A stretch of 64,000 nucleotides of DNA from Streptomyces sp. 846.5. GTDB lineage: Bacteria; Actinomycetota; Actinomycetes; Streptomycetales; Streptomycetaceae. The notes beneath the pieces are model-generated. The model was not told the origin of the DNA, searched no databases, and saw nothing but the letters and a program-made list of their open reading frames with translations. The stretch is taken from assembly GCF_004365705.1 (NCBI RefSeq), contig NZ_SOBN01000001.1, forward strand, positions 558,001 through 622,000, read 5' to 3'. The translations under genes and the position numbers were made by a program. Every line of letters starts with the position of its first letter. The first letter of the stretch is position 1. Of this stretch, positions 20,459 through 40,241 are shown piece by piece.

Positions 20459-20462
<4 letters not shown>

Positions 20463-21503: not shown

Positions 21504-22586
21504 TCAGGCCCCGTGGTCGGCCACCCGCGCCTGGATCAGCGCTTCGGCCGAGGGGGATCCGGGGCCGACCTCGGGCATCTGTACGTCGGTTGTGCTGAAG
21601 CCGGCCGCCTCCAGGAGCGCGGTGAGCTCCGCGAGGGTGCGCTCGCGCCCCCCGAGGACGACGAGCATCTGCAGGTCGGAGAACTTTCCGGGGTGGAACC
21701 CGGCAACCTGGGGAATGGCCTTGTCGATGAGGAGCAGCCTGGAGTGCGGCCCCATGGCCGCGCGGACCGTGTTCAGGATCCGCAGGGCGTCGTCGTCATC
21801 CCAGTCGTGGATGACCCGGGACAGGATGTAGCAGTCTCCCCCCGTGGGGACGGACTCGAAGAAGCTGCCGCCGAGGACGTCGGCCCGGTCGAGAACGTTC
21901 CGCGCGGCGAGGAGGTCACGGGCCTGGGCCACGCCCGCGGGCGTGTCCAGGAGGATTCCCCTGAGGTGCTGGTGTCGCTCCAGCAGGTGCGCCAGGAGAC
22001 CGCCCATGCCTCCGCCGACGTCCACCACCGTCCGGTCGCCGCTGAAGTCGTGGTGGGTGAGTACGTGTGCGGGTGCTCCGGTGCCGGCCATGGCGTTGAA
22101 CGCGGCGCTGGGAGCCGCCTCCTGCGCGAGGAAGGCGAAGTGCGACATCCCGTAGACATGGTCGAAGGCCGCCTCTCCGGTGCGCACGGTGTGCATCACC
22201 TGGGCCCAGGCGCTGAAGCTCTCCTCCCCGTTGACGATGATGAAGTAGCGCAGGCCCCCCGGGGCGTCGGAACGAAGGGCCGCGCCGACGGGCGTGGTGG
22301 CGAAGGTGCGCCCGGGAAGCTCCCGCAGTACTCCCAGTGCCTCCAGCGCCCGGCAGAACCGGTAGAGGGCTCCGGGATGCGCGTTGGTCTCCTGCGCCAG
22401 GTCCTCGCTGGTCCGCGGGCCGTGGGCGAGCGCGTCGGCGAGGCCGAGTTTGGCGGCGACGTACAGGCTCTGGAACGCCCAGGGCGCCGTGGTGACCACC
22501 AGTTCGCTGAGTGCGGCGGTGTCGGGGGGCGAGGAGGGAGCAGCCTCGGGTGCGACTGCCGGTGCGGATGTGGTGGGGCTGTTCAT
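21504..22586 (-). CDS. SAM-dependent O-methyltransferase 1 (polyketide tailoring)
   Basis: 360 residues. An N-terminal dimerisation/winged-helix domain (SLYVAAKLGLADALAHGPRT, YRFCRALEALGVL) is followed by the SAM-binding loop TVVDVGGGMGGLLAHLL. The catalytic His region is SRVIHDWDDDDALRIL. This is the TcmO/DmpM-type family that methylates phenolic hydroxyls on aromatic polyketides. The ATG at 22586 overlaps the stop of the upstream small gene (ATGA), which fixes the start. It is in the main biosynthetic operon, unlike the other two methyltransferases. Confidence 0.9.
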   Translation of the reverse strand: MNSPTTSAPAVAPEAAPSSPPDTAALSELVVTTAPWAFQSLYVAAKLGLADALAHGPRTSEDLAQETNAHPGALYRFCRALEALGVLRELPGRTFATTPVGAALRSDAPGGLRYFIIVNGEESFSAWAQVMHTVRTGEAAFDHVYGMSHFAFLAQEAAPSAAFNAMAGTGAPAHVLTHHDFSGDRTVVDVGGGMGGLLAHLLERHQHLRGILLDTPAGVAQARDLLAARNVLDRADVLGGSFFESVPTGGDCYILSRVIHDWDDDDALRILNTVRAAMGPHSRLLLIDKAIPQVAGFHPGKFSDLQMLVVLGGRERTLAELTALLEAAGFSTTDVQMPEVGPGSPSAEALIQARVADHGA

Positions 22587-22798
22587 GACTGGCCTTCCTC
22601 GGGAACAGGCTCCGGGGCCGCGGAATGGGGTATGGCGAGGCCGTACCACCAGCCCAGGTGGATGAGGCCGTGGGTCACGGCATGCCCGATGCGTCGCAGG
22701 AATCCGCTCTGCGGAGCGGGGCTGAGGTAGTACCAGGGCGAATCCCCCGACGGGGGCGGGCCCATGGGGTGACGGGTGTCCCGCAGGTGCCTAGGCAT
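22583..22798 (-). CDS. Small protein of unknown function between cyclase and methyltransferase
   Basis: 71 residues if it starts at the ATG 22798 (overlapping the cyclase stop by 8 bp), or 60 residues from 22765. The core PWYYLSPAPQSGFLRRIGHA, then GLIHLGWWYGLAIPHSAAP, is rich in Trp/Tyr and weakly amphipathic. There is no Cys and no recognisable domain. It is coupled on both sides by overlaps, so it is almost certainly translated. Its presence inside the polyketide operon suggests a pathway-specific role, perhaps as a binding or cyclisation helper, which is only inference. Confidence 0.65.
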   Translation of the reverse strand: MPRHLRDTRHPMGPPPSGDSPWYYLSPAPQSGFLRRIGHAVTHGLIHLGWWYGLAIPHSAAPEPVPEEGQS

Positions 22799-23120
22799 TG
22801 CGTTCCCAGCGGTAGAACTCCTGTGCCATGGCGTCCTTGGGCTCGCGCCAGGTCGTCGGGTCGTAGGCCGCGACGAAGGGACGCAGTTCCTCGCTGATGC
22901 GCCGGAACTCCGGGTGGTGCCGCGCGTCGGTGACCGCGGACTCCACCGGCGCCTCCCCTTCGACCAGGTGCAGGTAGACCTGGCCGAACTGGAAGAGGCT
23001 GCGCGACCGGACGCCGATGGTCTGCGGCAGGTCCGTGGTCCGGTCGGAGTTCGCGAAGATCTCCGCGATGTCGGGCGCGGCGTCCGGCAGCATCCGGGCG
23101 ACGATGAGGCTTCGGTACAT
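22791..23120 (-). CDS. TcmI-family polyketide cyclase
   Basis: 109 residues of the TcmI/WhiE-ORFVII ferredoxin-like fold: MYRSLIVARMLPDAAPDIAE, IGVRSRSLFQFGQVYLHLVE, ARHHPEFRRISEELRPFVAA and the C-terminal KDAMAQEFYRWE. TcmI catalyses the last ring closure in tetracenomycin biosynthesis, and relatives act in spore pigment and pentangular polyphenol pathways. It lies 22 bp after the hydroxylase gene in the operon. Together with the monodomain aromatase and the cupin it forms a three-cyclase set for a polycyclic skeleton. Confidence 0.92.
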   Translation of the reverse strand: MYRSLIVARMLPDAAPDIAEIFANSDRTTDLPQTIGVRSRSLFQFGQVYLHLVEGEAPVESAVTDARHHPEFRRISEELRPFVAAYDPTTWREPKDAMAQEFYRWERNA

Positions 23121-23142: not shown

Positions 23143-24273
23143 TCAGATGAGGAAGTCGGGGACGTCCTGGCCGAGTAGGACGGATCCGGCCCGGCGCTGT
23201 GCCTCCAGGCCGAAGGCGATGTGCTGCGCGGCTGTCTGGACGTCGCGGAAGAACCGCTGGAGCGGCGCGCGGTCGTAGAGCTGGCTCGCCCCGCAGGCCC
23301 GCATCGCCGAGTCCGCCACGTCGATCGTCGTACGCATGGCGTGTTGCACCGAAGCGGTCAGCAGCGCCCGGGACCCGGGCGACGCGATGCCGTCCTGCGT
23401 CTCGGCCCAGACCTGTCGCACCGCGTCGTGGACAAAGGACCGGGCCGAACGGACGGCCGCCTCGCAGCGCACGATCTCGGCCTGAATGATCGGGGTCTGC
23501 GCGAGCAGGGTCCGTTCGGTGTTCCGCTTGACCAGGACGATGTCGCGGTACTCGTCGACGATGCGCCGCGCCGTGCCCAGGGGGAAGCCGGCCATGGCGA
23601 CCAGCAGATAGCTCATGTAGGGCAGGCGGTAGAGCGGACCGTCCTCCTGTGCGGGCCCGAACGGGTCGAACGTGAAGCGCCGGGGGACGACGACGTCGGT
23701 GGCCTCGATGTCGTGGCTGCCGGTGCCCCGCAGGCCGGCGACGTGCCAGGTGTCGTGTATCCGGACGTCGGCGCTGGGCAGCAGCGCGAACCGGGGCCCC
23801 CCGGCGCCTTGCCGGAACCCCGCCACCAGGTAGTCGGCGACCGAGCATCCGCTGGTGTACGGCCAGCGGCCGGTCAGTCGGATCGCGTCGTCCCCGCTGG
23901 GCACCGCGCTTCCGTGCGGTGCCATCGACCCGGTGATCAGGGGTGCGGGCCGGGTGCCCACGACCTCCTCGGCCGCGTCCCGGTCCAGCCAGGCCAGGTA
24001 GCCGGCGCCCTGGCCGATCAGGACGGTCCAGCCGGTGGCGGCGTCGCCTCGGCTCAGCTCCTCCACCACCCCGATCAGGGTCAGCGGGTCGGCTTCCAGG
24101 CCGCCGAGGGAGGCCGGGGCCATGAGGCCGAACAGGCCCGCGTCACGCAGTTCCGCGACCAGGTCGGCGGGGACGGTGCGGCCGGATTCCACCTCCAGCG
24201 CCCGGCCCGGCAGGTCGGCCGCTATCCGGACGGCTGATTCGAGCGGGGAGCTCTGTGTCGTGGTGACGGACAT
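23143..24273 (-). CDS. Acyl-CoA-dehydrogenase-fold flavin monooxygenase A
   Basis: 376 residues with the ACAD fold but no acyl-CoA signature. It resembles two-component FMNH2-dependent hydroxylases (HsaA, ActVA-ORF5 type). Visible segments are RTVPADLVAELRDAGLFGLM, SRGDAATGWTVLIG, TGRWPYTSGCSVADYL, DTWHVAGLRGTGSHDIEATD and the C-terminal ASQLYDRAPLQRFFRDVQ. Such enzymes hydroxylate aromatic polyketides or phenols and need reduced flavin from a reductase. It is paralogous to the adjacent gene (24333-25529). No dedicated flavin reductase of the HpaC type is visible. The WrbA-like gene at 34526 is one possible source. Confidence 0.83.
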   Translation of the reverse strand: MSVTTTQSSPLESAVRIAADLPGRALEVESGRTVPADLVAELRDAGLFGLMAPASLGGLEADPLTLIGVVEELSRGDAATGWTVLIGQGAGYLAWLDRDAAEEVVGTRPAPLITGSMAPHGSAVPSGDDAIRLTGRWPYTSGCSVADYLVAGFRQGAGGPRFALLPSADVRIHDTWHVAGLRGTGSHDIEATDVVVPRRFTFDPFGPAQEDGPLYRLPYMSYLLVAMAGFPLGTARRIVDEYRDIVLVKRNTERTLLAQTPIIQAEIVRCEAAVRSARSFVHDAVRQVWAETQDGIASPGSRALLTASVQHAMRTTIDVADSAMRACGASQLYDRAPLQRFFRDVQTAAQHIAFGLEAQRRAGSVLLGQDVPDFLI

Positions 24274-24332: not shown

Positions 24333-26347
<2,015 letters not shown>

Positions 26348-27568
26348 TCAGGTGGGTCGCCGGACCAGAAGCGCGGAGTTGCCGCCGGAGATCCCGCGGG
26401 CGAGGACCAGGGCCGTCTGTGCGTCCGTCGCCCGGGGCGCCGCGGTGACCAGGTCGATGTCGAAGCAGGACCCGGTGGCGTACGGAGTGGGCGGGACAAG
26501 CCCGTCGCGCAGGGCCAGCACCGCCAGTGAGACGTCCAGCGCCGCGGCTCCCGCGTACGCGCGGCCGAACCCGGCCTTGGGTACGGTCACCGGGATCCCG
26601 CGCAGCCCGGAACCGAAGACCTCTTCCAGCGCTGCCACTTCCGCCCGGTCGGCAGCCGGGACGCCGAGCCCGTCGGCGAACACCATGCCGACCTCCTCGG
26701 GCGGGCACTGTGCCTCGTCGAGGGCGGCCTGGATCGCCTTCGCCAGGCCCTGTGCGCTCTCCTCGTGCCTGAGCATGCCGGTGTACGTCGCTCCGTGGCC
26801 GGCGATCCTGGCCTGCGGCGCCGCTCCTCGGCGGAGTGCGGCCTGCTCCTCCTCGAGCACAAGCACGGCACCGCCCTCCGCGGGGACGTATCCGCAGGCG
26901 TCCGCACCGAACGGGAGGTACGCGTCGGCGGGGTCCTCCTTCGAGCTCAGCAGTCCGTGGCCGTACTGGCAGGCCATGGCGAACGGGGCGAACGGGGCCT
27001 CTGCCCCGCCTGCCAGCATCGCCGTCGTCCCGTAACGGATGTCCCGGGCGGCGTGGGCCAGCGCGTCCAGCCCCCCTGCCTCGTCGGCGACCAGGACCCC
27101 GCAGGGGCCCTTCAGGCCATGACGGATCGACAGCTGGCCGGTGCTGGCGGCGTAGAACCAGGCGATGGACTGGTAGGGGCCGACGTGGCTGGGCCCACGG
27201 CTCCACAGCAGTTCGATCTCGCGCTGCCCGAATTCCACTCCCCCGGCGGCGCTCGCCGTGACCGCGCCGAAGGAGTAGGGCGGTAGGTCCTGCGGACGCA
27301 GCGCCGCGTCCTGCAGCGCCAGATCGGCCGCGGCCAGCGCGAACTGGGTGAACCTGTCGGTCTGTACGGCGACCCTGGGATCGATCACCTCGGTCGGCCG
27401 GAATCCGGGGACCTCCCCGGCGACCTTCAGCGGGTACGCCCCGGTCGGGTAGCGGGTGAGCGGACCGAGGGCGCCCCTGCCCGCGAGCACCGCCGTCCAC
27501 AGTTCCCCGGTCCCGATGCCGCTGGGCGCGATCACGCCGATGCCGGTGACGACGGTGTGCCGGCTCAT
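26348..27568 (-). CDS. Type II PKS chain length factor (KS beta)
   Basis: 406 residues with the ketosynthase fold but no active-site Cys. The segment [20 protein letters not shown] aligns with the CLF region where Gln normally replaces Cys; here it is Glu163. Other CLF landmarks are [40 protein letters not shown] and [20 protein letters not shown]. It forms a heterodimer with the KS and sets chain length. The start overlaps the KS stop (ATGA). Order and relatives suggest a long chain (whiE-type, about C24), but length cannot be read from sequence by eye. Confidence 0.93.
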
Positions 27569-28827
27569 CGCCTGCTCCCTTCGCGGGTGAGCACGACGGC
27601 GGACTGGAATCCGCCGAAGCCGCTTCCCACCGACAGCACATGGTCCAGCCGCGCCTGCCGCGCGTGGAGCGGGACGTAGTCCAGGTCGCACTCGGGGTCG
27701 GGGATCTCGAGATTCGCGGTCGGCGGGATGGTCTCGTTCTCGATCGCCAGCACGGAGGCGGCGAGTTCGATCGCACCGATGGCGCCGAGAGAGTGTCCGA
27801 CCATCGACTTGATGGAACTGACACTGGTCGCGTAGGCGTGGGAGCCCAGCGCCCGCTTGATCGCCGCGGTCTCGTGGCGGTCGTTCTGCTTGGTTCCGGA
27901 ACCGTGGGCGTTGACGTAGTCGATGTCGTACGGATCCACCCGGGCATGGTGCAGGGCCTGTGTGGCCGCCTCCGCCATCTCCAGCCCCTCCCTGGTCAGC
28001 CCGGTCATGTGATAGGCGTTTCCGCGGGTCGCGAAGCCGCTGACCTCGCAGCGGATCCGCGCGCCCCGGCGGCGCGCGTGGTCGGCCTCCTCCAGGACGA
28101 GGACGGCGGCGCCCTCCCCCATGACGAAGCCGTCACGGGTGAGGTCGAAGGGCCGGGAGGCGTGGGCCGGATCGTCGTTCCGGGTGGACGTCGCCCGGAT
28201 GGCGTCGAAGCAGGCCACCGTGATCGGCGAGATGGGGGACTCGGCCGCCCCGGTGATCACCACGTCGGCCTTTCCCTCCTCGATCAGTCGCAGGCCGTAC
28301 CCGACCGCGTCCAGCCCCGAGGTACAGCCGGTGGAGACGGTGTGCACCACGCCGCGGGCCCCTGCCAGGTCGGCGATCTCCCCGGCCAGCGGCGCCGGGG
28401 AGAAGACCCGGAAGAGGTCGCGTGAGACGCTGCGGTGGTCGACCGCCCATGATCTGCCCCGGTCGCTGGCCGCCACGTACTCGGTCTCCAGCCGGGTGGT
28501 ACCGCCCACCGCGCTGCCCATGGAGACCGCCGTGCGCCAGGACCCGCTCTCGTCCGGGTCGAGTTCCGCGTCGGCCAGCGCCTCCGCCGCGGCGACCACG
28601 CCGAACTGCACATACCGGTCCATGCGGGCGATCTCGGCCGGCTGCAGAAAGCTGTCGGCGTCGAACTGGCACTCGGCGGCGATACGGGACCGGAATCCGG
28701 TCGCGTCGAACAGGGTGATGGCGCGGGTGGCCGTACGGCCGGAGGTGAGCAGCTCCCAGAACGCCTTGGTGCCCGTCCCGCCGGGTGCCACCACACCGAC
28801 TCCGGTCACCACCGCGCGCCGGGTCAC
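27565..28827 (-). CDS. Type II PKS ketosynthase (KS alpha)
   Basis: 420 residues. The active-site Cys168 is in [20 protein letters not shown]. The catalytic histidines are in [14 protein letters not shown] and [15 protein letters not shown]. It begins [20 protein letters not shown] from a GTG that overlaps the cupin stop (GTGA). With the CLF it condenses malonyl-ACP units into a poly-beta-ketone. No KS III or dedicated acyltransferase is nearby, so priming by acetate (malonyl decarboxylation) is the simple inference. Confidence 0.96.
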
Positions 28828-29213
28828 GCCGGCTCCTCGGTGTCCACATGCCCGAGCTCGGGCCGCGGGGCCAGCGGACCCAGGTGGAAGACGATGCGCG
28901 CCTCCTGCTCCCCGGTGTTGCGGACCCGGTGGCGGACGTTCACCGGCACCAGGAGTCCCTGGCCGGCGCGGGCCAGGTGCGGCCGACCGTCCAGGTCGAC
29001 CGTGACCTCACCACTCGTCAGGTACAGGAACTCCTCGGAGTAGGGGTGGTAGTGCTCGACCACCCGTTCTCCGGGCTGCAGGATGGCGACCCCCATGAAC
29101 CCGGAGGTGCTGCCGACGGTGGCCGGGCTCAACAGGGTGCGCAGATCGCCACCGCGTTTGCGGTTGGCGGGGACCTCATCGATGTCGACGACGCGGACGG
29201 GCTTGCTGGTCAC
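28824..29213 (-). CDS. Cupin polyketide cyclase (WhiE-ORFII type)
   Basis: 129 residues from the GTG at 29213, chosen because a TGGAG RBS lies 6 bp upstream and the conserved start is [20 protein letters not shown]. An upstream GTG at 29264 overlapping the previous stop would add 17 residues. The cupin metal motif is [20 protein letters not shown] with [12 protein letters not shown]. Relatives in spore-pigment and pentangular clusters assist ring cyclisation. Its position immediately before KS matches whiE. Confidence 0.88.
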
Positions 29214-29260
29214 GTGGGCTCCAGATCGCGAAGGGGTGTTGACGGTGCCGTGTCCCGCGT

Positions 29261-30259
29261 TCACACGGGCGCCCGGACGGCGGCCGGGAGCTTGGATCCG
29301 AACAGCTTTCGGGCGTTGTCCTCACGTACGGCCTGCCGCTGCGGCTCCGCGACGTCGAGGCCGTCGACGAGCTGCAGCCCCTCCTGAACCGCCGTTCCCG
29401 GCAACGGCGGGGAGTCACTGCCGTAGAGCACCTTGTCGGGGCCGAAGACCTGCAGAGCGAGTTCCAGCGCAGCCGCGCTGGGCGTGGCCGTGTCCACCCA
29501 CAACCGGCGGAGGTAGCTGCTCGGCGGCGCCTTGAGCGCCGGGGTGCGGTGACCGGCGGGGCCGCTTCCCGGCCGGCCCGGCCCCGCACCGGCCCAGTGC
29601 TCGGGCGACCAGGCCCGGTCCAGTTTCTCGCCGAGCAGGGCCAGCGCCCCTCCGGCGCCCTGGCCGATGAGCCGCAGGTCGGGGTGGTGGTCGAACCAGC
29701 CGCCCAGGATGCAGCAGGCGAGGCCGATGGTGACGTCGCTGAACCTGCCGAGCTGCTCCACCGCCATCAGGTCCGCGAGTCCTGTCCCGGCTGCCGGAGC
29801 CGCCGGAGCATGCATGAGCACCGGAGCGGCGGTCTCTGCGGCCAGAGCGAAGAAGTCCTTGGCGTCAGGGTGGTCCAGATAGCGTCCCGCGACGCTGGTA
29901 TTCGCGATCAGGCCGACGAACTCGGCCTGATCGAGCCGTCGGGCTGCCGCGGCCAGGTGGGCGTCCCCTCCGAACGGGTTGACGTAGACGTAGGCGCGCA
30001 GCCGCTGGGGGTGGCGTGCGACCAGTTCACTCGTCCAGTCGTGGAACCGGGCGAGGTCGTCCTCGCTCTGCGCGTAGTTGTCCACACCGGGCAGCGGGAC
30101 CATCGCCCCGGCTCCCACCGGGCTCCCGATCACGGTCAGCTCCACCCCGGCGGCGAGCTTGGCCTCGATCATGCCTTCGGCGTCGCCGAGCGACCGCGGC
30201 ATGGGGAATCTGCGCAGCGACTCCGGCGGGCTGAGATGACCGTGCACGTCGATGGTCAC
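29261..30259 (-). CDS. Amidohydrolase-2 / ACMSD-like metal hydrolase or decarboxylase
   Basis: 332 residues. The N-terminal DVHGHLSP gives the HxH metal site, [11 protein letters not shown] a further His, and VLYGSDSPP the C-terminal Asp. This fits the ACMSD/OHCU-type TIM-barrel family that often decarboxylates aromatic acids. In a polyketide operon it could remove the terminal carboxyl left after cyclisation or open a lactone; both are inferences. An insertion rich in Gly/Pro (about residues 221-245) is unusual. The GTG start overlaps the upstream stop. Confidence 0.8.
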
Positions 30260-31140
30260 AGCCCAGGGCCCTTCTCGTCCGCGCCGCCGACGGTGCGTGA
30301 GATCGCGGCGCAGTCCAGGTCTCCGTCGCCGCGCCGAACCGCTTCCTCATGGGTGGCCAGGGCAGCCTCGACCAGGGGAAGTCCCAGGCTGCCGGACTGC
30401 GCCTCGGCGACCGCGAGAGCGAGGTCCTTGGTCATCAGGCGCAGCCGGAAGTCCGGATCGCCGTACCTGCGCGAGACGAGGCGGCGCGCCTTGTACCCCA
30501 TGACCGGGGTGGCGAAGCCGCCGGCGGTGATGGCGTCGAGCACCACCCCGCGGTCCAGGCCGGCGCTCTCGCCCAGGGCCGTGGCCTCGGCCATGGCCTG
30601 GACCTGGATCCCCATCAGCGTGTTCATCAGGAGCTTGAGGCGCATCCCGTCGCCGGGGCCCCCGACGTGGAGCACCTCCTTCGCGAGCAGGTCCAGGGTG
30701 CCGCGCACCCGGGCGAGGTCCTCGGCCGATCCGCCCACGTAGATCCGCAGCGCCCCGGTCCTGGCGTGCTCGCCGTTGCCCAGCAAGCCCAGGTCGAGCA
30801 CACGGGGAGTGCGTTCGCGGACGACCGCGAGCGACCGCGGCGCGATCGTGCTCGCCGAGGCGAGAACGGCGTCGACGGGACCCGCGGTCAGCACTCCGTC
30901 CGGGCCCAGCAGGACCTCCTCGGTCGCCGCGCCGTCGGCGACCGAGACCAGGATCAGGTCCGCCCCCTGAGCGGCGGCCCGCGGTGTCCTGGCGTGGACG
31001 GCACCCCGCTGCTCCAGGGCCGCGCCGCGCTGCGCGGTACGGTTCCAGACGCGTACCCGGACGCCACTGTCCAGCAGCCGTCCGGCGATGCCCCCGCCCA
31101 TCACGCCGAGTCCCAGCACCGCCACGGTGGTCGCGCTCAC
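30256..31140 (-). CDS. 3-hydroxyisobutyrate dehydrogenase-like NAD(P) oxidoreductase
   Basis: 294 residues. The NAD(P) motif is TVAVLGLGVMGGGIAGRLLD; the family catalytic region is HVGGPGDGMRLKLLMNTLMG (Lys in LKLLMN); the C-terminal part is all-helical. The beta-hydroxyacid dehydrogenase/imine reductase superfamily reduces 3-hydroxy acids, imines or nitro-type substrates. No HIBADH belongs to the standard type II PKS set, so it may act on a side chain or an imine of the product. The GTG start overlaps the SchA/CurD-like stop. Confidence 0.82.
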   Translation of the reverse strand: MSATTVAVLGLGVMGGGIAGRLLDSGVRVRVWNRTAQRGAALEQRGAVHARTPRAAAQGADLILVSVADGAATEEVLLGPDGVLTAGPVDAVLASASTIAPRSLAVVRERTPRVLDLGLLGNGEHARTGALRIYVGGSAEDLARVRGTLDLLAKEVLHVGGPGDGMRLKLLMNTLMGIQVQAMAEATALGESAGLDRGVVLDAITAGGFATPVMGYKARRLVSRRYGDPDFRLRLMTKDLALAVAEAQSGSLGLPLVEAALATHEEAVRRGDGDLDCAAISRTVGGADEKGPGL

Positions 31141-31868
31141 GCCGGCACCCCCAGTCGACGGTCCGTCAGCATCCGCACGGTGATCCGCCGCAGGAAGGCC
31201 CGGAACCCCTGCGGGTCCTCCAGGTCCTCGTCCGCGGTCACCAGGGGGGCCAGCTTCGCGCCGCCTCCCGAGCGGACGGCCGCCAGGGCGATGCGGTCGA
31301 GTGCCTCGTCGGTGTCGCCGTGCACCTCGACCAGCCGGAGCACGACGTCCGTCCGCTGGAAGATCGTCGTGCGGGCGAGGATGGTGGCGGCGTCGGGCCG
31401 CAGCACGCGGGTGGCCGCCAGAAGCTGCGCCACCTCGGCGCCGGCCCCCTGCCGCACCGGGTACAGCAACGCCAGCCGGCGCTCGTGCAGGTGCTCCGGG
31501 ACCTCGGGGAGGAGCCCGGGGGGCGTTCGACGATCGTGCACCAGCGGCAGGACCGACCGCTCCTGGAACGCACGGATGCTCTGCGCGTCGGCGAGGTTCC
31601 GCGGGATCTCCAGGTGCGGGTTCAGTGCCTCCTCGACCGCCTGGATCTGGGGCTGCCCGGCGAGGTGGGCCAGGGCCTCGTGCAGGTCCCCCTCGACGTC
31701 GATCACCCGGATCACCCGGTTGCCCGCGAGGAACACCGAGGTACGCCTGAGCAGGGCCGGGCCACCGGGGCGCCGGCCGGCTGCCGGCCGACCGTAGCTG
31801 GAGAGGATCTCGGCCACCTGCGGCTCGCTGCCCGGCTTGACCGTGAACGAGAGTGCGTGTCGTTCCAT
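31137..31868 (-). CDS. SchA/CurD (WhiE-ORFI)-like protein
   Basis: 243 residues containing two related halves of the SchA/CurD-like domain: MERHALSFTVKPGSEPQVAE with LLRRTSVFLAGNRVIRVIDV, then LALLYPVRQGAGAEVAQLLA with ILARTTIFQRTDVVLRLVEV. It is found in spore-pigment and polyphenol clusters, and its role is not firmly established; an oxygenase-accessory or cyclisation role has been suggested for the family. The TGATG overlap with the FAD monooxygenase shows coupled translation. Confidence 0.87.
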   Translation of the reverse strand: MERHALSFTVKPGSEPQVAEILSSYGRPAAGRRPGGPALLRRTSVFLAGNRVIRVIDVEGDLHEALAHLAGQPQIQAVEEALNPHLEIPRNLADAQSIRAFQERSVLPLVHDRRTPPGLLPEVPEHLHERRLALLYPVRQGAGAEVAQLLAATRVLRPDAATILARTTIFQRTDVVLRLVEVHGDTDEALDRIALAAVRSGGGAKLAPLVTADEDLEDPQGFRAFLRRITVRMLTDRRLGVPA

Positions 31869-33073
31869 CAGGCGCTCCTGCGTGCGGTGTCGGATACGGG
31901 ACTCAGCCCCACACGGCTGAGCCATTCGGCCTCGGTGGTCGCCCGGAAGCGGCGGTTGCGCAGCTCGACCTGCTCCGGATCCAGCTCGTGGTGGAGGCGC
32001 CCGGAATGCCAGGCCGCCTGTGCCGCCGCCGTCACCACGGGAAAGCGCTGTTCCTCGAACGCCCGCAGTCGCCGGGCCAGATCGCCGCTGTCGCCCAGGT
32101 CGGCGTCCTGCAGCAGGTCCGCCAGCGCGACGGCGTCCAGCAGCGCCTGGCCGGCGCCCTGACCGGTGGTGGGCACCATGGGATGCGCGGCGTCGCCCAC
32201 CAGCAACGTGCGTGCCGTGGCCCAGCCGGGGGTGGGCAGCCGGTCCAGGATCGGGGTACGGACCACCTGGTCCGGCGGTGTGGCCGCCACCAGTTCCGCG
32301 GTCGGCTCCGGCGCGGCCCGGAAAGCGGACAGCAACCCGGCGTGCTCCGCGGCTCCGTGCACCCGCGTGCGGTCGTCGGCCCCGAGTTCCGACGCCAACT
32401 CGTCGGCCAGGGTGGCGACCCAGTAGGTCCGGCCGCCGGTGAGCGGCCATGAGCCGAAGGTGGCTCCGGTGCCGAGCACCTGGCGGGCGGTGGACGGGCG
32501 CAGGCCCGCCGGCGCCACGTTGCTGACAGCACGCCAGGACGTGAAACCGGCACGGCGCAGGGGGGCGTCCCCCAGCGTCTGGCGGCGCACCACCGAGTGG
32601 AGTCCGTCCGCGGCGATCAGCAGCTGGGCCCGGTCCCGGGTACCGTCGGCGAGCAGCAACTCGACGCCGTCCGCTGCCTCGCGGTATCCGGTGGCGATCG
32701 ATCCCAGCCGCAGGTCCTCCGGTCGCACGGCCGCGTGCAGCGCCCGTTGGAGCTGTGACCGCAGCACGGTCACGCTCGGGGCCCCCATGGCCTCGGACAC
32801 CTTCGACTGCGGCCACCCGCCGATGCGCTCACCGTCCCAGGACAGGAACTCCCAGGTCCGTACCTCTTCGCCGGCGGCCACGACCTGACGGTCCAGCCCC
32901 AGGCGCCGCAGTGCCAGCACCGCTCCCGGATGCAGACCCAGGGCGGAGCCGGCCGCGTCGAGCCGGCGCTCGCGCTCGTGGACGGCGACCTCGAAGCCGG
33001 CCTCCCTCAGCGCGATGGCCGCGGCCATTCCGGCGATGCCGCCGCCCGCGACGGCGATCCGTCCGCGGACCAT
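31868..33073 (-). CDS. FAD-dependent aromatic monooxygenase
   Basis: 401 residues of the p-hydroxybenzoate hydroxylase fold. It has GxGxxG in RIAVAGGGIAGMAAAIALRE, the DG motif LLIAADGLHSVVRRQTLG and the GD motif LLVGDAAHPMVPTTGQGAGQ. It should hydroxylate the polyketide at the expense of NAD(P)H. It occupies the role of the WhiE-ORFVIII hydroxylase but lies upstream of ORFI here. Both ends overlap neighbours by single-base TGATG junctions. Confidence 0.92.
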   Translation of the reverse strand: MVRGRIAVAGGGIAGMAAAIALREAGFEVAVHERERRLDAAGSALGLHPGAVLALRRLGLDRQVVAAGEEVRTWEFLSWDGERIGGWPQSKVSEAMGAPSVTVLRSQLQRALHAAVRPEDLRLGSIATGYREAADGVELLLADGTRDRAQLLIAADGLHSVVRRQTLGDAPLRRAGFTSWRAVSNVAPAGLRPSTARQVLGTGATFGSWPLTGGRTYWVATLADELASELGADDRTRVHGAAEHAGLLSAFRAAPEPTAELVAATPPDQVVRTPILDRLPTPGWATARTLLVGDAAHPMVPTTGQGAGQALLDAVALADLLQDADLGDSGDLARRLRAFEEQRFPVVTAAAQAAWHSGRLHHELDPEQVELRNRRFRATTEAEWLSRVGLSPVSDTARRSA

Positions 33074-33417
33074 CACAGCGCCCCGGCGTGCTTGCGGGTT
33101 TCCCTGCGCACGGTGAAGCGCCGCGACTCGCGTGCGGTGGTCTCGGCCACCAGCGGACCGGCGAGCTCGTGGTGCCCGGCACCCGATTCCCAGGCGAGGA
33201 AGTCCGCGCCGGAACGCCACTCGCTGGTGATCACCCATTCGCGGGGATCGGTGAGCGACTGGCACACCTGGTCCACCAGGTGCCCCTCGACGGTGGCGAC
33301 GTCGGCACAGATGCGGTCGTAGGCGGCCAGGAACCGTTCCCGGGCCTCCTCCTCGACCGTGAGGAAGAACATCACCCGCAGGTGGTCCGTCTCGACGGTG
33401 GGTTCCTGGATGCTCAT
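33073..33417 (-). CDS. Antibiotic biosynthesis (ABM) monooxygenase-like protein
   Basis: 114 residues of the cofactor-independent ABM ferredoxin-like fold: HLRVMFFLTVEEEARERFLA, VATVEGHLVDQVCQSLTD, EWVITSEWRSGADFLAWESG. Relatives oxidise anthrones to quinones in tetracenomycin- and pradimicin-type pathways. It overlaps the oxidoreductase upstream (ATGA) and the FAD monooxygenase downstream (TGATG). Quinone formation is the likely role, inferred from family. Confidence 0.85.
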   Translation of the reverse strand: MSIQEPTVETDHLRVMFFLTVEEEARERFLAAYDRICADVATVEGHLVDQVCQSLTDPREWVITSEWRSGADFLAWESGAGHHELAGPLVAETTARESRRFTVRRETRKHAGAL

Positions 33418-34529
33418 ACTGCCTCCCAGTGCCGGGTCCGATGACTGCGCTTGACGGCGTCGACGATGCGCGCCACGCGCCAGCCGTCGTCGAGGGTGGG
33501 GTAGTCCACGGGCCGTCCGATGCGGATGGTGTCCAGGAAGCTCGACGCCAGCTGTTCCCAGCGCTGGAGGCCGACCTCATGACGGGTGTTGGCGCCGGAG
33601 CCGGACATCTCGTCGACCGCGAGCCGTTCGGCGGGTTTGCCCGGTCTGAGGACCGAGAGTCCGGCCGTGCCGTTCCAGACCAGGGCGCCGTCGTCACCGA
33701 TCACCGCGATCTCGTCCTCCGCCGGGCCGGTGAGGTGCGTCGACTCCCAGAACCGCGCCCGTGGCCCGGTGCTCGTCTCGGCGAGGAAGTCGTAGCCGAC
33801 GTCAGCGGTGACGTCGTGGTGGGCGGCGTCACCCGGATCCCGGCCCTGGTTCTCGCGGGCCCAGGTGAACGCGTCCAGGGTGTGGTGGAACTCGGGGCCG
33901 ACCTGCGCCCGGGTCACATCGTGGGACAGCCGCCCGGACACGGCGGTGAGCTCCGCGTCCAGGAGCCAGCGCACGCGGTCGATGACATGAGTGCCGTGCT
34001 GCATCAGGCCGCCGCCGCCGACCTGCTCGTCGTAGATCCAGTTCATCGCCATCCGGGGGGCTCCCAGGGCACAGGTGCTGTGCACCTCGCGCAGCTGTCC
34101 CAGGCCGCCGGCTGCGATCAGCTCCCGCATGCGGACCAGGCCGGGGTCCCCGCGCCAGATGAATCCGGTCGCGTGGCGGACGCCCTGCTTGTCCGCGGCG
34201 AGCAGCATCTCCTGCGCCTGTCCTGCGGTCATGGCCACCGGCTTGTCGCACAGCACATGGCAGCCTGCCGCGACGGCGGCCAGCACCTGCTCGTGGTGAG
34301 CGGCGGGAAGCGAGGCGACGGACACCACCTCGGGTCCGGTGGCGCGCAGGAGTTCGTCGAAGGTGTCGGCCACCACCGGAACCCCGTAGCGGGCGGCCAG
34401 GTCGTCGGCCCGGCCACGGGTGCGGCTGAAGATGCCGACCACTTCGGCGCCTGCGCGCCGGAATCCTTCGAGGTGCAGCTCAGCGGCCCATCCTGCGCCG
34501 ATCACCGCCACTCGTGTGGGTGTGCTCAT
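33414..34529 (-). CDS. Gfo/Idh/MocA-family oxidoreductase
   Basis: 371 residues. The Rossmann start is RVAVIGAGWAAELHLEGFRR and the family motif is CHVLCDKPVAMTAGQAQEML with the conserved Lys of the DKP box. GGGGLMQHGTHVIDRVRWLL is in the substrate domain. Members oxidise or reduce sugars and related polyols, and some reduce polyketide or biliverdin-like substrates. No sugar biosynthesis or glycosyltransferase gene is nearby, so an aglycone reduction is more likely (inference). The start overlaps the WrbA-like stop (ATGA). Confidence 0.85.
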   Translation of the reverse strand: MSTPTRVAVIGAGWAAELHLEGFRRAGAEVVGIFSRTRGRADDLAARYGVPVVADTFDELLRATGPEVVSVASLPAAHHEQVLAAVAAGCHVLCDKPVAMTAGQAQEMLLAADKQGVRHATGFIWRGDPGLVRMRELIAAGGLGQLREVHSTCALGAPRMAMNWIYDEQVGGGGLMQHGTHVIDRVRWLLDAELTAVSGRLSHDVTRAQVGPEFHHTLDAFTWARENQGRDPGDAAHHDVTADVGYDFLAETSTGPRARFWESTHLTGPAEDEIAVIGDDGALVWNGTAGLSVLRPGKPAERLAVDEMSGSGANTRHEVGLQRWEQLASSFLDTIRIGRPVDYPTLDDGWRVARIVDAVKRSHRTRHWEAV

Positions 34530-35203
34530 GGGAGCCTCTCGCCTCGGTCGGGCAGGGACGGGCCGTGCAGGGACGGAGCGTGCAGGGCGGGGGCGCTCAA
34601 CCAGGGGTCGAGCCGCTGGGACAGCCGGGCCGCCTCGCGCCACCTGGCCAGCCGGGTGATCCGGCAGCCGACGAACTGCGCCGCCTCGATCTGATCCGGC
34701 GTCAGGGCCCCGTTGCTCGGGGCTGTCACCGAGAGGCCGTAGGGGTTGCCGCCGATCCGGCGCAGCGCTGGGTGTGTGTATCCGGTCGGCACGATCAGCG
34801 AGCCCCAGTGGAACATCGTGTGATAGAGGGCCAGCAGGGCGGCTTCCTGCCCGCCGTTGGGGAGTGAGGCGCTGGTGAATCCGGTGACCGGTTTGTCGGC
34901 GAGCCGACCGTTGAGCGCGAGCGGGCTGCTGGTGTCCAGGAACTGCTTGAGCCTGGCGGCGATGTTGCCGAACCGGGTCGGTGTCCCCAGGAGCAGTCCG
35001 TCGGCCCAGTCGAGGTCCTCGAGGCCCGGCTCGGGGAGTCCCCGGTCGGCGGCCCGCTGCGCTTCGCCGGGCTCGGCCTCCTCGCGCAGAGCGAGCACCC
35101 GAACCTGCGCGCCCTCCGTGCGGGCCCCGTCGGCCAGGTGCCGGGCGATCTCGGCTATCACCCCACTGGAACTGAAGTAGATGACGGCGATGCGAGGTTG
35201 CAT
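34526..35203 (-). CDS. WrbA/flavodoxin-fold NAD(P)H:quinone oxidoreductase
   Basis: 225 residues. The FMN-binding loops are IAVIYFSSSGVIAEIARHLA, LLLGTPTRFGNIAARLKQF and KPVTGFTSASLPNGGQEAAL with TMFHWGSLIVPTGY, typical of WrbA. It is the first gene of the long operon. It could reduce polyketide quinones or supply reduced flavin to the two ACAD-type hydroxylases. The C-terminus has a short repeated stretch (SAPALHAPSLHGPSLPD). The promoter should lie in 35204-35313. Confidence 0.88.
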   Translation of the reverse strand: MQPRIAVIYFSSSGVIAEIARHLADGARTEGAQVRVLALREEAEPGEAQRAADRGLPEPGLEDLDWADGLLLGTPTRFGNIAARLKQFLDTSSPLALNGRLADKPVTGFTSASLPNGGQEAALLALYHTMFHWGSLIVPTGYTHPALRRIGGNPYGLSVTAPSNGALTPDQIEAAQFVGCRITRLARWREAARLSQRLDPWLSAPALHAPSLHGPSLPDRGERLP

Positions 35204-35313
35204 GTCCCTGATCCCTTCTGCCGTGATCCATCCTCACGTGCAGGCCCCCGCAGGAGCGTCAGGGCAGTACCGTCACAATCACCCGGCCCCGGCGGCCTCC
35301 GGTGAACGCAGAA

Positions 35314-35363
35314 GTGGGGTCCAGGGTGGTACCGACGCACGTCGGTACCACCCTGGACCCCAC
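35314..35363. terminator. Perfect 23-bp inverted repeat with 4-nt loop
   Basis: The left arm (35314-35336, beginning GTGGGGTCCAGG) and right arm (35341-35363, ending CCTGGACCCCAC) are exact reverse complements around GCAC. It lies 20 bp past the end of the minus-strand SDR gene and 111 bp before the operon start. It most likely terminates SDR transcription. Streptomycete terminators often lack a U-tract, as here. Perfect pairing over 23 bp is longer than a typical terminator. Confidence 0.75.
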
Positions 35364-35382
35364 GATTCCGGGGAGTCCCCTG

Positions 35383-36171
35383 CTACCCGCCGATATGGGG
35401 GGCGCGGGCGGCGGAGGATCCGTCCCGCACCACCTCGCCGGTGAGGTTCCCGTTGGCGCCCGAGCCGAGGAAGACGATGATCCTGGCGACGTCGTCCGAG
35501 TCGGAGAGCCTGCGGCTCGGCGTGGCGGCCGCCAGGGCGTCGGTGACGAACTGGGGGATGTTCGGACGGCTGTCGGTGAGGGTGAACCCGGGGGCGACCA
35601 CATTGACCAGGATCCCGTCCCGGCCCCCTTCCCAGGCAAGGCTGCGGGCCATGCCGTACAGGCCCGACTTGGCGGTTCCGTAGGGACCGGGTCCGGGGAC
35701 GCCCTCCTCGGCGACGCTGGAGGAGATCAGCACGATGCGGCCCCAGCCGCGGGCGCGCATGCTCGGCAGCACCGCGCGGACCTGGGCAGCCGCGCCGACG
35801 AGGTTGGCATTGATCATCGCCTCCCACTCCGACAGCGGGACGTCCTCGAAGCGGATGCTGGGGTCGGGAGGCCCGTCACCGCCCCAGCGCACGGCATTGG
35901 CCACCAGGACGTCGATGCCGCCCCAGTGCTCGATCACCGTCGTCGCGGCCTGCTCCACGGTGGACAGGTCCTCGAGGTCGAGTCGCACGACGAGCGCCTG
36001 CCCCCCGGCGGCCTCGACCTCAGCGGCGACCTTCTCGGCCTTCTGCGGGTTGTTGCGGTACGTGATGGCCACTCGGGCGCCCTCGGCGCCGTAGGCACGC
36101 GCGGTGGCGGCCCCGATCCCGGTCGATGCGCCAGTGACCAGGACCACGCGGTCCTTGAGTCCAGTGTCCAT
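35383..36171 (-). CDS. SDR-family ketoreductase-like oxidoreductase
   Basis: 262 residues. The NADP motif is VVLVTGASTGIGAATARAYG. The catalytic Ser-Tyr-Lys set is in RIVLISSSVAEEG and PYGTAKSGLYGMARSL. The C-terminal IIVFLGSGANGNLTGEVVRD resembles FabG. It may be the polyketide ketoreductase of the cluster or a post-PKS reductase. It lies upstream of the main operon on the same strand, separated by the hairpin at 35314-35363, so it is probably transcribed separately. Confidence 0.85.
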   Translation of the reverse strand: MDTGLKDRVVLVTGASTGIGAATARAYGAEGARVAITYRNNPQKAEKVAAEVEAAGGQALVVRLDLEDLSTVEQAATTVIEHWGGIDVLVANAVRWGGDGPPDPSIRFEDVPLSEWEAMINANLVGAAAQVRAVLPSMRARGWGRIVLISSSVAEEGVPGPGPYGTAKSGLYGMARSLAWEGGRDGILVNVVAPGFTLTDSRPNIPQFVTDALAAATPSRRLSDSDDVARIIVFLGSGANGNLTGEVVRDGSSAARAPHIGG

Positions 36172-36222
36172 GGTGGGAACGTCCTCTCGTCATGCGGAAC
36201 AGGGTGCGAACCAACGCGCAGG

Positions 36223-36891
36223 TCAGGCGGCCGACGGGGCCGGCGCCGGGGTCCGGGCCGCTAGGGCGCGGACCGCGTCCAGCGCGGCGGCCTGCGAGGC
36301 GTCGTGCGTCTCGCGGAACTGGGCCAGGAAGGGCATGACGGTGGCGTGCGTGAGCTCGGTGTGCACGAACTCCACGTCCTCCAGCCCCAGCGCGGAGAAG
36401 TACGCGCGCAGGTAGGGCTCCTGGAAGTCGAAGGGCTCCCGGGGCGCACCCGGTCCGTAGGCCCCGCCGCGTGCGCTGAGCACGACGGCCGACTTGCCCC
36501 CCAGCGGCAGCCAGGGCAGGGTGACCCGGTCGATCCAGGCCTTCAGGGCGGCCGGTACCGAGAAGTTGTACATCGGAGTACCGAGCACCACCACGTCCGC
36601 GGCCAGCAGCTGCTCGATCAGCGGCCGGGTGGCCGCCCAGGCGGCGGCCAGCTCCGGCGCGGCGGCGACCGCGTCCATCGCGTCGAGGTCACGCACGCCG
36701 TTGACCGAGGACTGGGTGGCGAGCCGGACACGTGCTTCGTCGATCGGTGCCACCGGATCCGCGACCAGGTCACGGTAGACGTAGGCACCGTCCGGGTTCG
36801 CGGCCCGCCATTCGGTGGCGAAGACCTGCCCCAGCCGGCGGGAGAAGGAGTCACCGCGTGCGCTGGCGTCCAGATGCAGCAGAGAGGCCAT
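36223..36891 (-). CDS. azoR: FMN-dependent NADH:quinone/azo reductase (AzoR family)
   Basis: 222 residues. Features are SLLHLDASARGDSFSRRLGQ, VVVLGTPMYNFSVPAALKAW, VVLSARGGAYGPG and PYLRAYFSALGLEDVEFVHT, all typical of AzoR. It reduces quinones or azo compounds in a two-electron step and may protect against the quinonoid product or take part in tailoring. ATG 36891 was chosen because homologues start at MASLLHLDAS. It is 51 bp upstream of the SDR and divergent from a marR gene. Confidence 0.9.
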   Translation of the reverse strand: MASLLHLDASARGDSFSRRLGQVFATEWRAANPDGAYVYRDLVADPVAPIDEARVRLATQSSVNGVRDLDAMDAVAAAPELAAAWAATRPLIEQLLAADVVVLGTPMYNFSVPAALKAWIDRVTLPWLPLGGKSAVVLSARGGAYGPGAPREPFDFQEPYLRAYFSALGLEDVEFVHTELTHATVMPFLAQFRETHDASQAAALDAVRALAARTPAPAPSAA

Positions 36892-36990
36892 GCCGTTGAT
36901 CCCCAATCGAGATGATTTTGATTCGAGACCAGAGTATTCAGAAATCGTTTCAAGTCAAGATGATATTGGTTGTTTGCTAGTCTGTTGACT
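36892..36990. promoter_or_regulatory. AT-rich divergent promoter between azoR and marR
   Basis: The sequence is strikingly AT-rich for this genome. TCGAGATGATTTTGATTCGA (36907-36926) has TCGAGA repeated at a 16-bp period, and the segment AAGTCAAGATGATATTGGTT (36952-36971) repeats the GATGAT element. Divergent MarR-family genes normally carry their operators here. The exact palindrome is not clear. Confidence 0.55.
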
Positions 36991-37505: not shown

Positions 37506-40241
37506 TCATGCCTGCAGCGCGCGGCCCAGTTCGGCGCGACCGCGAATACCCAGCTTGCGGTAGGCCCGGGTCAGATGGGTCTCGACGGTGCGCCGGGTGA
37601 CGAACAGCTCCCTGGCGATGGACCCGTTGGTGCATCCGGTGGCGGCCAGCGCGGCCACCCGGCGCTCGCTGCCGGTGAGTGCCCCGGTCCCGAACTGATC
37701 GCTCCTCCTCGGCAGGGCTCCCGCGGTGAGCAGTTCCGAGAGCACCCGCTCGGAGAGCGTGGCCGCGCCGATCCTCTGCGCGAGACGCAGTGCGCGCTTC
37801 AGCGTCTCCCTCGCCTCACGCTTGGCATTGCCCCGGCACTGCACCACACCCAGGGCAGTGAGCGTATAGGCCAGCTCCAGCTGCGTGTCGCTGGGTTCAA
37901 GGATCTCCACGGCCCGTTTCAGGGCCGACTCCCCCTCCGGTCCCTGCAGGACCAGGCCCTGGGCGCGCAGCGCCACCGCGACCGTGCGCGGGCTTCCCCA
38001 CAGGTACGCCGCCCGCAGTTCCTCCTCGGCCAGGCGCCCGGCCTCCTCGGTGTCCCCGAGCTTGTTCCACATCAGCGCGGTCTCGGAGCGCCACCGCAGC
38101 ACCGCCGGATTGGTCACCCCCCACTCCTCCAACTGGCGTCCGCTGCGGGTCAGATCCTCCGCCGCACCGTGGAAGTCCCCCTGCGCGGCACGGACCCTGG
38201 CGCGCATGGCCGCCAGCAACGGGTAGGGCCACACCTCGGGGAGCGTGCCCGAGTAGCCGCGGGACTCCAACAGGACGGACGCCTCCTCGGCCTGGCCGGT
38301 CTCCACCAGGGTGGCCACCAACGGCACCAGTACCAGTGCCTGCAGGGGATCGGTGTACCCAGGGTCCCCGAGGAACTCCAGGGCGTGCCGCGCATCCTGC
38401 TCCGCGTCGCGCAGCCGGCCCGCCTCGAAGCGGGCGCCGGCCCTCGCGACCAGTGCGACGACGGCGGTGAGCAGACCTCCGGCTTCGAGCGGCGCTGCCA
38501 GGACCGTGCTGCACCAGCGGTCCACCAGGCCGAGTTCGTCCGCCCACAGCAGGGTGAGCAGAGCGAGCAGCAGAGCCGTCCAGTCCTGGCAGCCGCGGGC
38601 GCCGTCCGCGAGCAGCCTGCGGATCCGGGAGACGGCGTTCTTCGCTGTCGCCTCGCCCCTCGCCGCCGCCCGGGCGGTGTGCACCGCCGTCACCAGAAAG
38701 TCGTCGCCGGCCTGTCCGGCCGCGACACCCGCCAGCAGTTCCGGCTCCAGCGTGGACGTGGCGCGCCCGAGCCGGGCCACCAGGACCGCCCCCGCGTCCA
38801 GCCGGTGCACGAGGCCGTCGCGCGACTGCGCGGGTGGATGCTCCAGCAGGCGCGCCCGGCACTGCGCAATGACCTCGCCGGCCTCCTCGGCCCGGTTCAC
38901 CCGCACGAGCGCCTGCGCGCAGGTGAGGGCGGCAGCGACCTGACGCTCGGGCGAACGCGCGGCGGACAGGCCGGGCCGCAGTCGCTGGGCCAGGCGCAGC
39001 GGGTCCGTGATCAACTCGATGTGGTCGAGATCCGTCTGCAGCTCCTCACGCAGCGGGCCCTCCACCGGTTCGCCCAGCGCGCGCAGCAGCAACTCCCTGG
39101 CTTCGTCCAGGCGGCGAGCGCGGACGGCCTCGGCCGCAGCGGCGCGCAGGACCTGCGGGGCCCACTCCGTGTCCGCGGGTTGCGACCGCAGCAGGTGGTG
39201 GGCGATGGCGTCGGGCGGTGCGTTGCGCTCGTGCAGCGTCCGGGAGATACGGCCGTGCACCTCCTGCGGGTCGATGCTGGCCGGCATTCGGTGCAGCGCA
39301 CCACCGACGACCGGATGCACGAAGGTCCACGGTTCGGAGGCAGTGAGCAGGCCCATCCCGCAGAGCATGTCCAGGACGGTGGCCAGTTCCGACTCGGAGA
39401 CCCCGGCGGCCTGCGCCACGAGGGCCCGGTCCTGGCGGCCTCCCAGCAGCGCGACGGTCTCGGCGACCCGCAGCACGCACGCGGGAAGGTGCGCCAGCCG
39501 GGCGCGCACCGCTCGGCCCACCACCCGGTCCAGCTCACCCGGGGACTGCTGAGCCGCCACGTCCGTGGCCGCGGTCAGCAGCCGTCCCTCCAGCAGGGTC
39601 GCGAGCAGCAGCGGATTGCCCCCGGTGAGTTCGTGGATGCCCAGCACGAGCGGGGCCGGAGTGGGGCCGAGCGTGCGATCGGCGAGCTCCTGGGTCCCGG
39701 CGACGCTCAGCGCCGCGCACCGCAGGACGGTCCACACCCCGGCGCCCCGGAGCCCGGCCGTCACCAGCGGGGCGGTGTCCGGCTCACCTGCTCTGCGCGT
39801 GACGGCGATCAGCACCGGCAGCCCCTGAAGCCTGCGGGCCACGTAGGCCAGGGCCTGCAGGGAGGCCGCGTCGCAGAAGTTGAGGTCGTCCACGGCCAGG
39901 ATGACCGGCGCCTGGCGGGCCAGTCGGCGGATCCGGCGCAGCACTCCGTCCAGCAGGTGCAGGTCGACCGGCAGATCGGGGTCCAGGGCCGGGAGTTCGG
40001 GTTCCAGCAGCTGGCGCAGCACACCGTAGGGGAACTCCGACTCGAGCACACTGCTGCGGGCGGTGCACACGGTGAGCTGACGGCCGCAGGCCAGTCTGGC
40101 GAGTTCGAAGAGGAGCTCGGTGCGGCCGGTTCCGCACTGCCCCTCGATGAGCAGGAGACCCCCGACGCCACGGCAGAGGTCGTCGATGAGGCGGTTCAGT
40201 GTGAGTGTCTGGGACCAACGTTCTGTCAGGATGTGGTTCAC
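37506..40241 (-). CDS. LAL-type LuxR regulator (large ATP-binding) of the polyketide cluster
   Basis: 911 residues. The N-terminal AAA/NB-ARC-like domain has Walker A GQCGTGRTELL with Arg40 where Lys is usual, and Walker B VILAVDDLNFCDAASLQALA. A long TPR-like middle follows. The C-terminal LuxR HTH is LTGSERRVAALAATGCTNGS, then IARELFVTRRTVETHLTRAY. LAL proteins are typical pathway-specific activators. The GTG at 40241 has a strong AGGGGGAAA RBS. It sits between the tailoring genes and is the only large regulator in the cluster, so it is the likely activator (inference). Confidence 0.9.
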   Translation of the reverse strand: MNHILTERWSQTLTLNRLIDDLCRGVGGLLLIEGQCGTGRTELLFELARLACGRQLTVCTARSSVLESEFPYGVLRQLLEPELPALDPDLPVDLHLLDGVLRRIRRLARQAPVILAVDDLNFCDAASLQALAYVARRLQGLPVLIAVTRRAGEPDTAPLVTAGLRGAGVWTVLRCAALSVAGTQELADRTLGPTPAPLVLGIHELTGGNPLLLATLLEGRLLTAATDVAAQQSPGELDRVVGRAVRARLAHLPACVLRVAETVALLGGRQDRALVAQAAGVSESELATVLDMLCGMGLLTASEPWTFVHPVVGGALHRMPASIDPQEVHGRISRTLHERNAPPDAIAHHLLRSQPADTEWAPQVLRAAAAEAVRARRLDEARELLLRALGEPVEGPLREELQTDLDHIELITDPLRLAQRLRPGLSAARSPERQVAAALTCAQALVRVNRAEEAGEVIAQCRARLLEHPPAQSRDGLVHRLDAGAVLVARLGRATSTLEPELLAGVAAGQAGDDFLVTAVHTARAAARGEATAKNAVSRIRRLLADGARGCQDWTALLLALLTLLWADELGLVDRWCSTVLAAPLEAGGLLTAVVALVARAGARFEAGRLRDAEQDARHALEFLGDPGYTDPLQALVLVPLVATLVETGQAEEASVLLESRGYSGTLPEVWPYPLLAAMRARVRAAQGDFHGAAEDLTRSGRQLEEWGVTNPAVLRWRSETALMWNKLGDTEEAGRLAEEELRAAYLWGSPRTVAVALRAQGLVLQGPEGESALKRAVEILEPSDTQLELAYTLTALGVVQCRGNAKREARETLKRALRLAQRIGAATLSERVLSELLTAGALPRRSDQFGTGALTGSERRVAALAATGCTNGSIARELFVTRRTVETHLTRAYRKLGIRGRAELGRALQA

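Follow-up and report, generated by a model that had tools for sequence, protein, structure and literature searches.

An amidohydrolase and a beta-hydroxyacid-dehydrogenase-fold reductase as a conserved, probable add-on of whiE-type polyketide pathways

We find that two adjoining genes in a type II polyketide synthase (PKS) operon of Streptomyces sp. 846.5, encoding an amidohydrolase (AMH) and a reductase of the beta-hydroxyacid dehydrogenase (beta-HAD) fold (HBD), are a conserved add-on of whiE-type polyketide pathways. Because a cassette with both genes is conserved, because the cassette P450 is linked to whiE, and because the cassette co-occurs with the whiE-type KSalpha, we consider it highly probable that AMH and HBD tailor WhiE-type (spore-pigment-like, C24) aromatic polyketides. 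Taken as a whole, our best explanation is a two-enzyme WhiE-type tailoring module in which a metal-dependent keto/enol step would be followed by a reduction, and we hold it with about as much belief as doubt. The module is built into the PKS operon studied here, and many Streptomyces carry it in trans as an ABM-HBD-AMH-P450 cassette.

The stretch of DNA analysed (64,000 nt, hereafter the window; G000:C1:558001-622000, with G and L as our labels for genomes and loci) belongs to a 9.0-Mb genome, and the operon lies on its minus strand. It begins with genes for an azoreductase-type flavodoxin-fold protein, an SDR and an FMN reductase (together 34526..36906; assigned by Pfam, and syntenic with L063 and L106), followed by a GFO/IDH/MocA-type oxidoreductase (33414..34529; PF01408), an ABM-domain protein (33073..33417; PF03992, E = 2.3e-15), an FAD-binding monooxygenase (FMO, 31868..33073; PF01494, 5.7e-21) and a SchA/CurD protein corresponding to the cyclase part of WhiE-I (243 aa, 31137..31868, ATG start at 31868; PF04486 in two stretches, 9.7e-47). 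Then come HBD (294 aa, 30256..31140; PF03446 NAD_binding_2, 2.9e-29, and PF14833 NAD_binding_11, 1.8e-21), AMH (332 aa, 29261..30259; Amidohydro_2 of the ACMSD fold, PF04909, 2.1e-25) and a WhiE-II type cupin (28824..29264; Cupin_2, 6.3e-19) that is 61–69% identical to the cupin adjoining KSalpha in whiE loci. The remainder consists of KSalpha (27565..28827; ketoacyl-synt, 66–72% identical to whiE-type KSalpha), CLF (KSbeta, 26348..27568, with a putative upstream start set from the overlap with KSalpha; ketoacyl-synt, frame 26351-27691), ACP (26011..26268, the end exact and the start approximate, at the first internal ATG; PP-binding, 0.00041), a START-type polyketide cyclase (ARO/CYC, 25526..26014; Polyketide_cyc, 9.7e-16), two acyl-CoA-dehydrogenase-type flavin monooxygenases (24333..25529, PF08028, HsaA-like with the NCBIfam HsaA match under the cut-off; and 23143..24273, PF08028), a TcmI-type cyclase (22791..23120; PF04673, 5.2e-41), an O-methyltransferase (21504..22649; PF00891) and PfkB.

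HBD and AMH overlap each other by 4 bases, and each overlaps its outer neighbour by the same length. Their third-position GC (0.91 for HBD and 0.87 for AMH) is typical of real genes in the same genome. Together with the Pfam matches, this bears out both genes as an earlier, sequence-only reading had called them, in position and strand. That reading had placed the pair inside the minimal PKS operon: the operon is indeed the same one, but the two genes precede KSalpha-CLF-ACP and are flanked by SchA/CurD and the cupin.

The downstream end of the cluster (16875-21460) holds biotin carboxylase, carboxyltransferase and PfkB-kinase genes; PfkB is common to the window, L063 and L107, and the biotin carboxylase is 84% identical in L107. 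On the other side, at 37506-44534, a berberine-bridge-type oxidase and two more O-methyltransferases are found near a LuxR-type regulator, and each of these has a counterpart in L106 (52–78% identical).

The window genome has no second KSalpha of this kind, the remaining matches there being a 37%-identical synthase and the CLF. Across genomes the matches of the window KSalpha form one set at about 66–73% identity and another at about 57–65%, with some overlap at the border. Around members of the former set we read 14 loci (L153–L165 and L167), with the 63% locus L166 as a contrast. The series SchA-cupin-KSalpha-CLF-ACP-ARO-TcmI was complete in 12 of the 14 and incomplete in the other two; it is the gene order of whiE. 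The window core keeps the whiE order SchA/CurD, cupin, KSalpha, CLF, ACP, ARO, CYC, with insertions such as HBD-AMH. Known spore-pigment clusters of the whiE/sch/cur type, which also have an FAD hydroxylase, share the core gene order, and in the whiE loci read the cupin, KSalpha and ARO are 61–75% identical to those of the window. The window differs from them in the insertion of HBD-AMH, in having the ABM gene apart from SchA, and in the addition of two acyl-CoA-dehydrogenase-type monooxygenases, three O-methyltransferases, GFO/IDH/MocA, a carboxylase and PfkB. According to the available part of PMC6689052, WhiE-I (SchA/CurD) comprises an ABM and a cyclase domain, and WhiE-II is a cupin. In the window the ABM part of WhiE-I (33073-33417) and its SchA/CurD part (31137-31868) are separate genes with the FAD monooxygenase in between; the ABM gene is the counterpart of both the WhiE-I N-terminal domain and the cassette ABM, which is 34–46% identical to it.

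Apart from PKS clusters, HBD and AMH occur in a four-gene cassette. The order ABM-HBD-AMH-P450, on a single strand, was found in all 32 stand-alone loci, from 32 Streptomycetaceae genomes (one further carrier, L214 in G865, is truncated by a contig end and was left out). In the 10–20 kb read around the cassettes there was no match to the window KSalpha, CLF, cupin, SchA, ARO, TcmI, FMO or GFO; the flanks vary, and the commonest neighbour family occurs in 7 of the 32. ABM proteins can act as non-catalytic fidelity factors (PMC6689052, in the part available), so the ABM of the cassette is not necessarily a monooxygenase. In the open-access literature we found no clearly relevant paper on the four-gene cassette, nothing joining an amidohydrolase to type II PKS, pentangular, whiE, cupin or SchA, and nothing joining 3-hydroxyisobutyrate dehydrogenase to type II PKS.

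Relatives of the cassette P450 lead back to whiE. A search at E 1e-160 gave one match each in 44 of 333 Streptomyces genomes, 18 of them of the cassette type (68–88% identity) and 26 others (60–65%). Among the latter, 21 lie 6.4–6.8 kb downstream of a whiE-type KSalpha on the same strand, and five are on other contigs. We read 16 of the 21 linked loci (L162, L199–L213) and four of the five unlinked ones (L215–L218), and all 20 have a second amidohydrolase and an FAD hydroxylase beside the P450. This amidohydrolase is about 25% identical to AMH (Amidohydro_2, 5e-22 in L162), and the hydroxylase shares about 60% identity with the FAD gene at other whiE loci. At the 16 linked loci the WhiE-type FAD hydroxylase sits between amidohydrolase and P450, the unit follows whiE directly, and an adjoining ABM gene was called in 11; at L215–L218 the unit sits away from whiE. 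Given the linkage of P450, ABM and amidohydrolase at both cassettes and whiE loci, whiE-type genes are thus served by two amidohydrolases that are only distantly related, one acting in cis and the other in trans. Each comes with one of two sister P450s and in many cases with an ABM protein. The view that an amidohydrolase falls outside the standard type II toolkit therefore did not survive, as one adjoins whiE in these 16 loci, chosen by their P450. We also considered a mutual exclusion of cassette and whiE-linked P450s. There is no overlap between them (18 and 26 of 333 genomes), but the chance probability is 0.22, or 0.08 when the approximately 210 whiE carriers alone are counted, and the idea was not used.

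A whiE-type KSalpha (threshold E 1e-172 or better) is present in 20 of 20 cassette carriers of the Streptomyces sample, as against 233 of 371 other genomes (Fisher p = 1.3e-4, uncorrected for kinship; 2.4e-4 at a looser cut). Overall it is found in 31 of the 32 cassette genomes, G233 having none above the threshold. As a control, the other type II KSalpha (about 57–65%) is not commoner in cassette carriers (approximately 21 of 32 against 22 of 29 of the rest). This co-occurrence of cassette and whiE is confounded by kinship. The genome G983 has a window-type cluster plus a separate whiE-type KSalpha, which argues that the window cluster is not simply the spore-pigment locus.

A search with AMH at E 1e-30 gave matches in 27 of the 394 Streptomycetaceae genomes covered, made up of the window, 17 cassettes standing alone, seven type II PKS clusters, one further locus in G140 and a distant match (30%) in G117. 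The family looks restricted, because a phylum-wide search at E 1e-45 matched the window genome alone among 396. With HBD at E 1e-60, 21 of the 392 Streptomyces genomes searched gave a match, namely G983 and 20 cassettes, 15 of these new. Streptomyces avicenniae (L063) carries AMH and HBD at 78 and 75% identity in a syntenic cluster, and in G983 HBD is 70–71% identical, again in a cluster syntenic with the window. A scan of named genomes gave 18 loci, 12 of them distant matches; the close ones were S. avicenniae, three Actinophytocola, Kitasatospora purpeofusca and Streptomyces sp. NRRL F-6131. Two locus pairs (L057/L067 and L058/L066) are the same genome counted twice. Searches of plasmids gave no match for HBD and a single one for AMH (Nonomuraea, L105). 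Quick trees of both proteins, with long branches flagged, group the 32 cassettes in a single clade and place the three window-type clusters in a second. The suggestion that the two enzymes act together fits well with the conservation of AMH and HBD as a unit across orthologs.

A gene for an NAD(P)H reductase, either HBD or an SDR, adjoins AMH in 48 of 49 rows. HBD takes this place in the 32 cassettes, in the three window-type clusters and at L048, and an SDR does so in 11 rows (in L054 seen by tblastn alone); L038 has an adjacent SDR and HBD nearby. The exception is L105, where an SDR-like gene is non-adjacent and on the opposite strand. A different type II PKS cluster, seen at L038, L044 and L054–L058 and with K. 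purpeofusca (L066) as a named member, also has AMH, there accompanied by an SDR, a SchA/CurD protein and a monooxygenase of the luciferase type. The Actinophytocola loci (L064, L065, L068) have the AMH-SDR-SchA-luciferase-type unit, while cupin, CLF and ARO were not matched in the 21 kb covered; next to it is a large gene, called at 803–1766 aa, which at two of these loci shows a weak match to KSalpha.

AMH had been read as an ACMSD-like decarboxylase, and ACMSD is its nearest solved structure by both sequence (best phmmer match among PDB sequences, 7.8e-15) and fold (best Foldseek match to the AMH model, E 9.3e-18, TM 0.77, about 23% identity; model pLDDT 87). The four metal ligands shared with ACMSD and other Amidohydro_2 decarboxylases, which the sequence-only reading had proposed to check by modelling, are kept in the alignment: all 49 rows have H6, H8 and H150, and the 48 rows that extend to D282 all have it. 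However, a His at the position of ACMSD His228 is found in none of the 49 rows, which have Gly, Thr, Val, Asn, Ser or Ala instead, whereas the 31%-identical outgroup L061 does have it. As the catalytic His is missing throughout although the ligands are kept, an ACMSD-type decarboxylase identity, judged from sequence, is doubtful. The family tolerates change at this site, because three of eight same-genome Amidohydro_2 paralogs have Glu there and five have His (the window genome has 20 Amidohydro_2 matches). Counterparts of Arg51 and Arg239, the arginines of ACMSD that bind the substrate carboxylate, were not identified in AMH, the model being of low confidence at 50–52 and 230–234. In the AMH of G983 (L107:1066-2562), the loop that follows the sixth strand is enlarged by an insert of about 170 residues, which is of low complexity and rich in Gly, Ser, Asn and Asp.

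HBD has the GxGxMG Rossmann motif and the beta-HAD fold by Pfam, alignment and model (pLDDT 92), the nearest folds being N-PAC and gamma-hydroxybutyrate dehydrogenases (TM 0.9). All 37 rows keep the catalytic Lys169, Asn173 and an NR (NADP-type) motif after the second strand. As far as the fold goes, the assignment as a beta-hydroxyacid-type dehydrogenase is supported. The narrower label of HIBADH-like is right for the superfamily fold and fails at the NCBIfam HIBADH equivalog, where HBD scores 119.4 bits against a cut-off of 291.6. Compared with gamma-hydroxybutyrate dehydrogenases and tartronate semialdehyde and glyoxylate reductases (3pef, 3pdu, 1yb4), HBD is alike in fold, Rossmann motif, Lys and Asn, but their SGG substrate motif has become (L/V)GN (LGN in the window): the Ser is kept in none of the 37 rows and the Gly in all, and an invariant His-Ala follows two residues on.

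Our tentative proposal for the chemistry, to which we would give somewhat less than an even chance, is that AMH carries out a keto/enol step with the help of a metal and that a reduction with NADPH comes next, where the substrate, the reaction and the order of steps are inferred. A single divalent metal in AMH (H6, H8, H150, D282) would bind the polyketide through an enolised 1,3-diketone or a phenol. Lacking the water-activating His, AMH could act as a Lewis-acid keto/enol enzyme (a tautomerase or an aldol-type cyclase) instead of decarboxylating in the manner of ACMSD, and it would present a ketone to HBD, which may reduce it with NADPH bound through the NR motif and Lys169 as the acid/base. 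In other clusters the SDR would take the part of HBD. A keto/enol role is easier to reconcile with the missing His than ACMSD-type decarboxylation, because in the H228A mutant of ACMSD the kcat for decarboxylation falls 142-fold while tautomerisation of oxaloacetate is near-normal (2.98 versus 6.51 per s), although the tautomerase activity requires Arg51 and Arg239 (PMC11650718, in the part available). An AMH that makes a carbonyl for a reducing partner also fits the reductase gene found beside it. On the other hand, the whiE-linked amidohydrolase keeps this His (19 of 19 aligned members), and should the two enzymes share a function, its absence from AMH is less telling; HBD and SDR might also act at unrelated positions. 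As a bolder and, in our judgement, unlikely version, AMH could drive a phenol ring in the WhiE-type polyketide over to the keto tautomer for HBD or SDR to reduce, giving a two-enzyme dearomatising reduction encoded on a mobile, trans-acting spore-pigment cassette.

Alternatively, in line with the sequence-only reading, AMH could resemble ACMSD or 6-MSA decarboxylase and strip the polyketide acid, once released, of its terminal carboxyl, with HBD reducing the resulting or a neighbouring ketone. We take this as a serious rival, though less likely than not. It agrees with the sequence and fold nearest to AMH, with the retained ligands and with the complete site of the whiE-linked amidohydrolase, and in the available text on fasamycin, whose pathway is related, hydrolysis of the thioester is followed by the loss of a carboxyl group (PMC6689052). 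The lost His and the effect of H228A speak against it, and such beta-keto acids can decarboxylate without an enzyme, as the same partly available source says of one intermediate. We consider it quite unlikely that AMH is a C-C bond hydrolase or a retro-aldol or ring-opening enzyme acting after oxidation by ABM, FMO or P450, with HBD reducing an aldehyde or keto acid. The accompanying ABM and P450 or FMO would suit this, as would a meta-cleavage-product hydrolase of lignin-dimer breakdown among the distant matches of AMH and the tartronate semialdehyde reductases and gamma-hydroxybutyrate dehydrogenases among the nearest folds of HBD. Hydrolysis, however, normally uses an activated metal water, whose activating His in ACMSD (PMC11650718, in the part available) AMH lacks, and the carboxylate-binding motif of HBD is without its Ser.

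The sequence-only reading had also raised imine chemistry, for which we found no positive evidence, and an HBD that works like an imine reductase towards a nitrogen-containing terminus is very improbable. Imine reductases share the fold, appear lower among the HBD matches, and the Ser of SGG is lost in HBD; but in imine reductases the catalytic Lys of the beta-HAD fold is replaced, while HBD keeps the Lys of carbonyl and hydroxyacid reductases, its nearest folds are beta-HAD proteins that are mostly carbonyl reductases, and no aminotransferase family was found among the scanned cluster genes of the window. We find it scarcely credible that AMH and HBD are a chance catabolic insertion that takes no part in the polyketide pathway. 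Both proteins do come from large catabolic superfamilies, as the many Amidohydro_2 matches in the genome illustrate, but the 4-base overlaps within the operon, the retention of the pair in three syntenic clusters and the tie of cassette and P450 to whiE argue against it.

Pentangular polyphenol pathways such as those of formicamycin and pradimicin use WhiE-II cupin, TcmI-type cyclase, ARO and ABM jointly, as the window cluster appears equipped to do, whereas the word amidohydrolase is absent from that paper (PMC6689052). The AMH/HBD module is probably a variant of type II PKS tailoring and not a new kind of system.

To our knowledge, neither the mature spore pigment made by WhiE nor the steps that tailor it have yet been worked out. 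The compact conserved gene set of amidohydrolase, P450, ABM and reductase, found both beside whiE and away from it, is a place to seek the missing tailoring steps, and the clade of amidohydrolases without the His would be a test case for the reuse of a decarboxylase fold.
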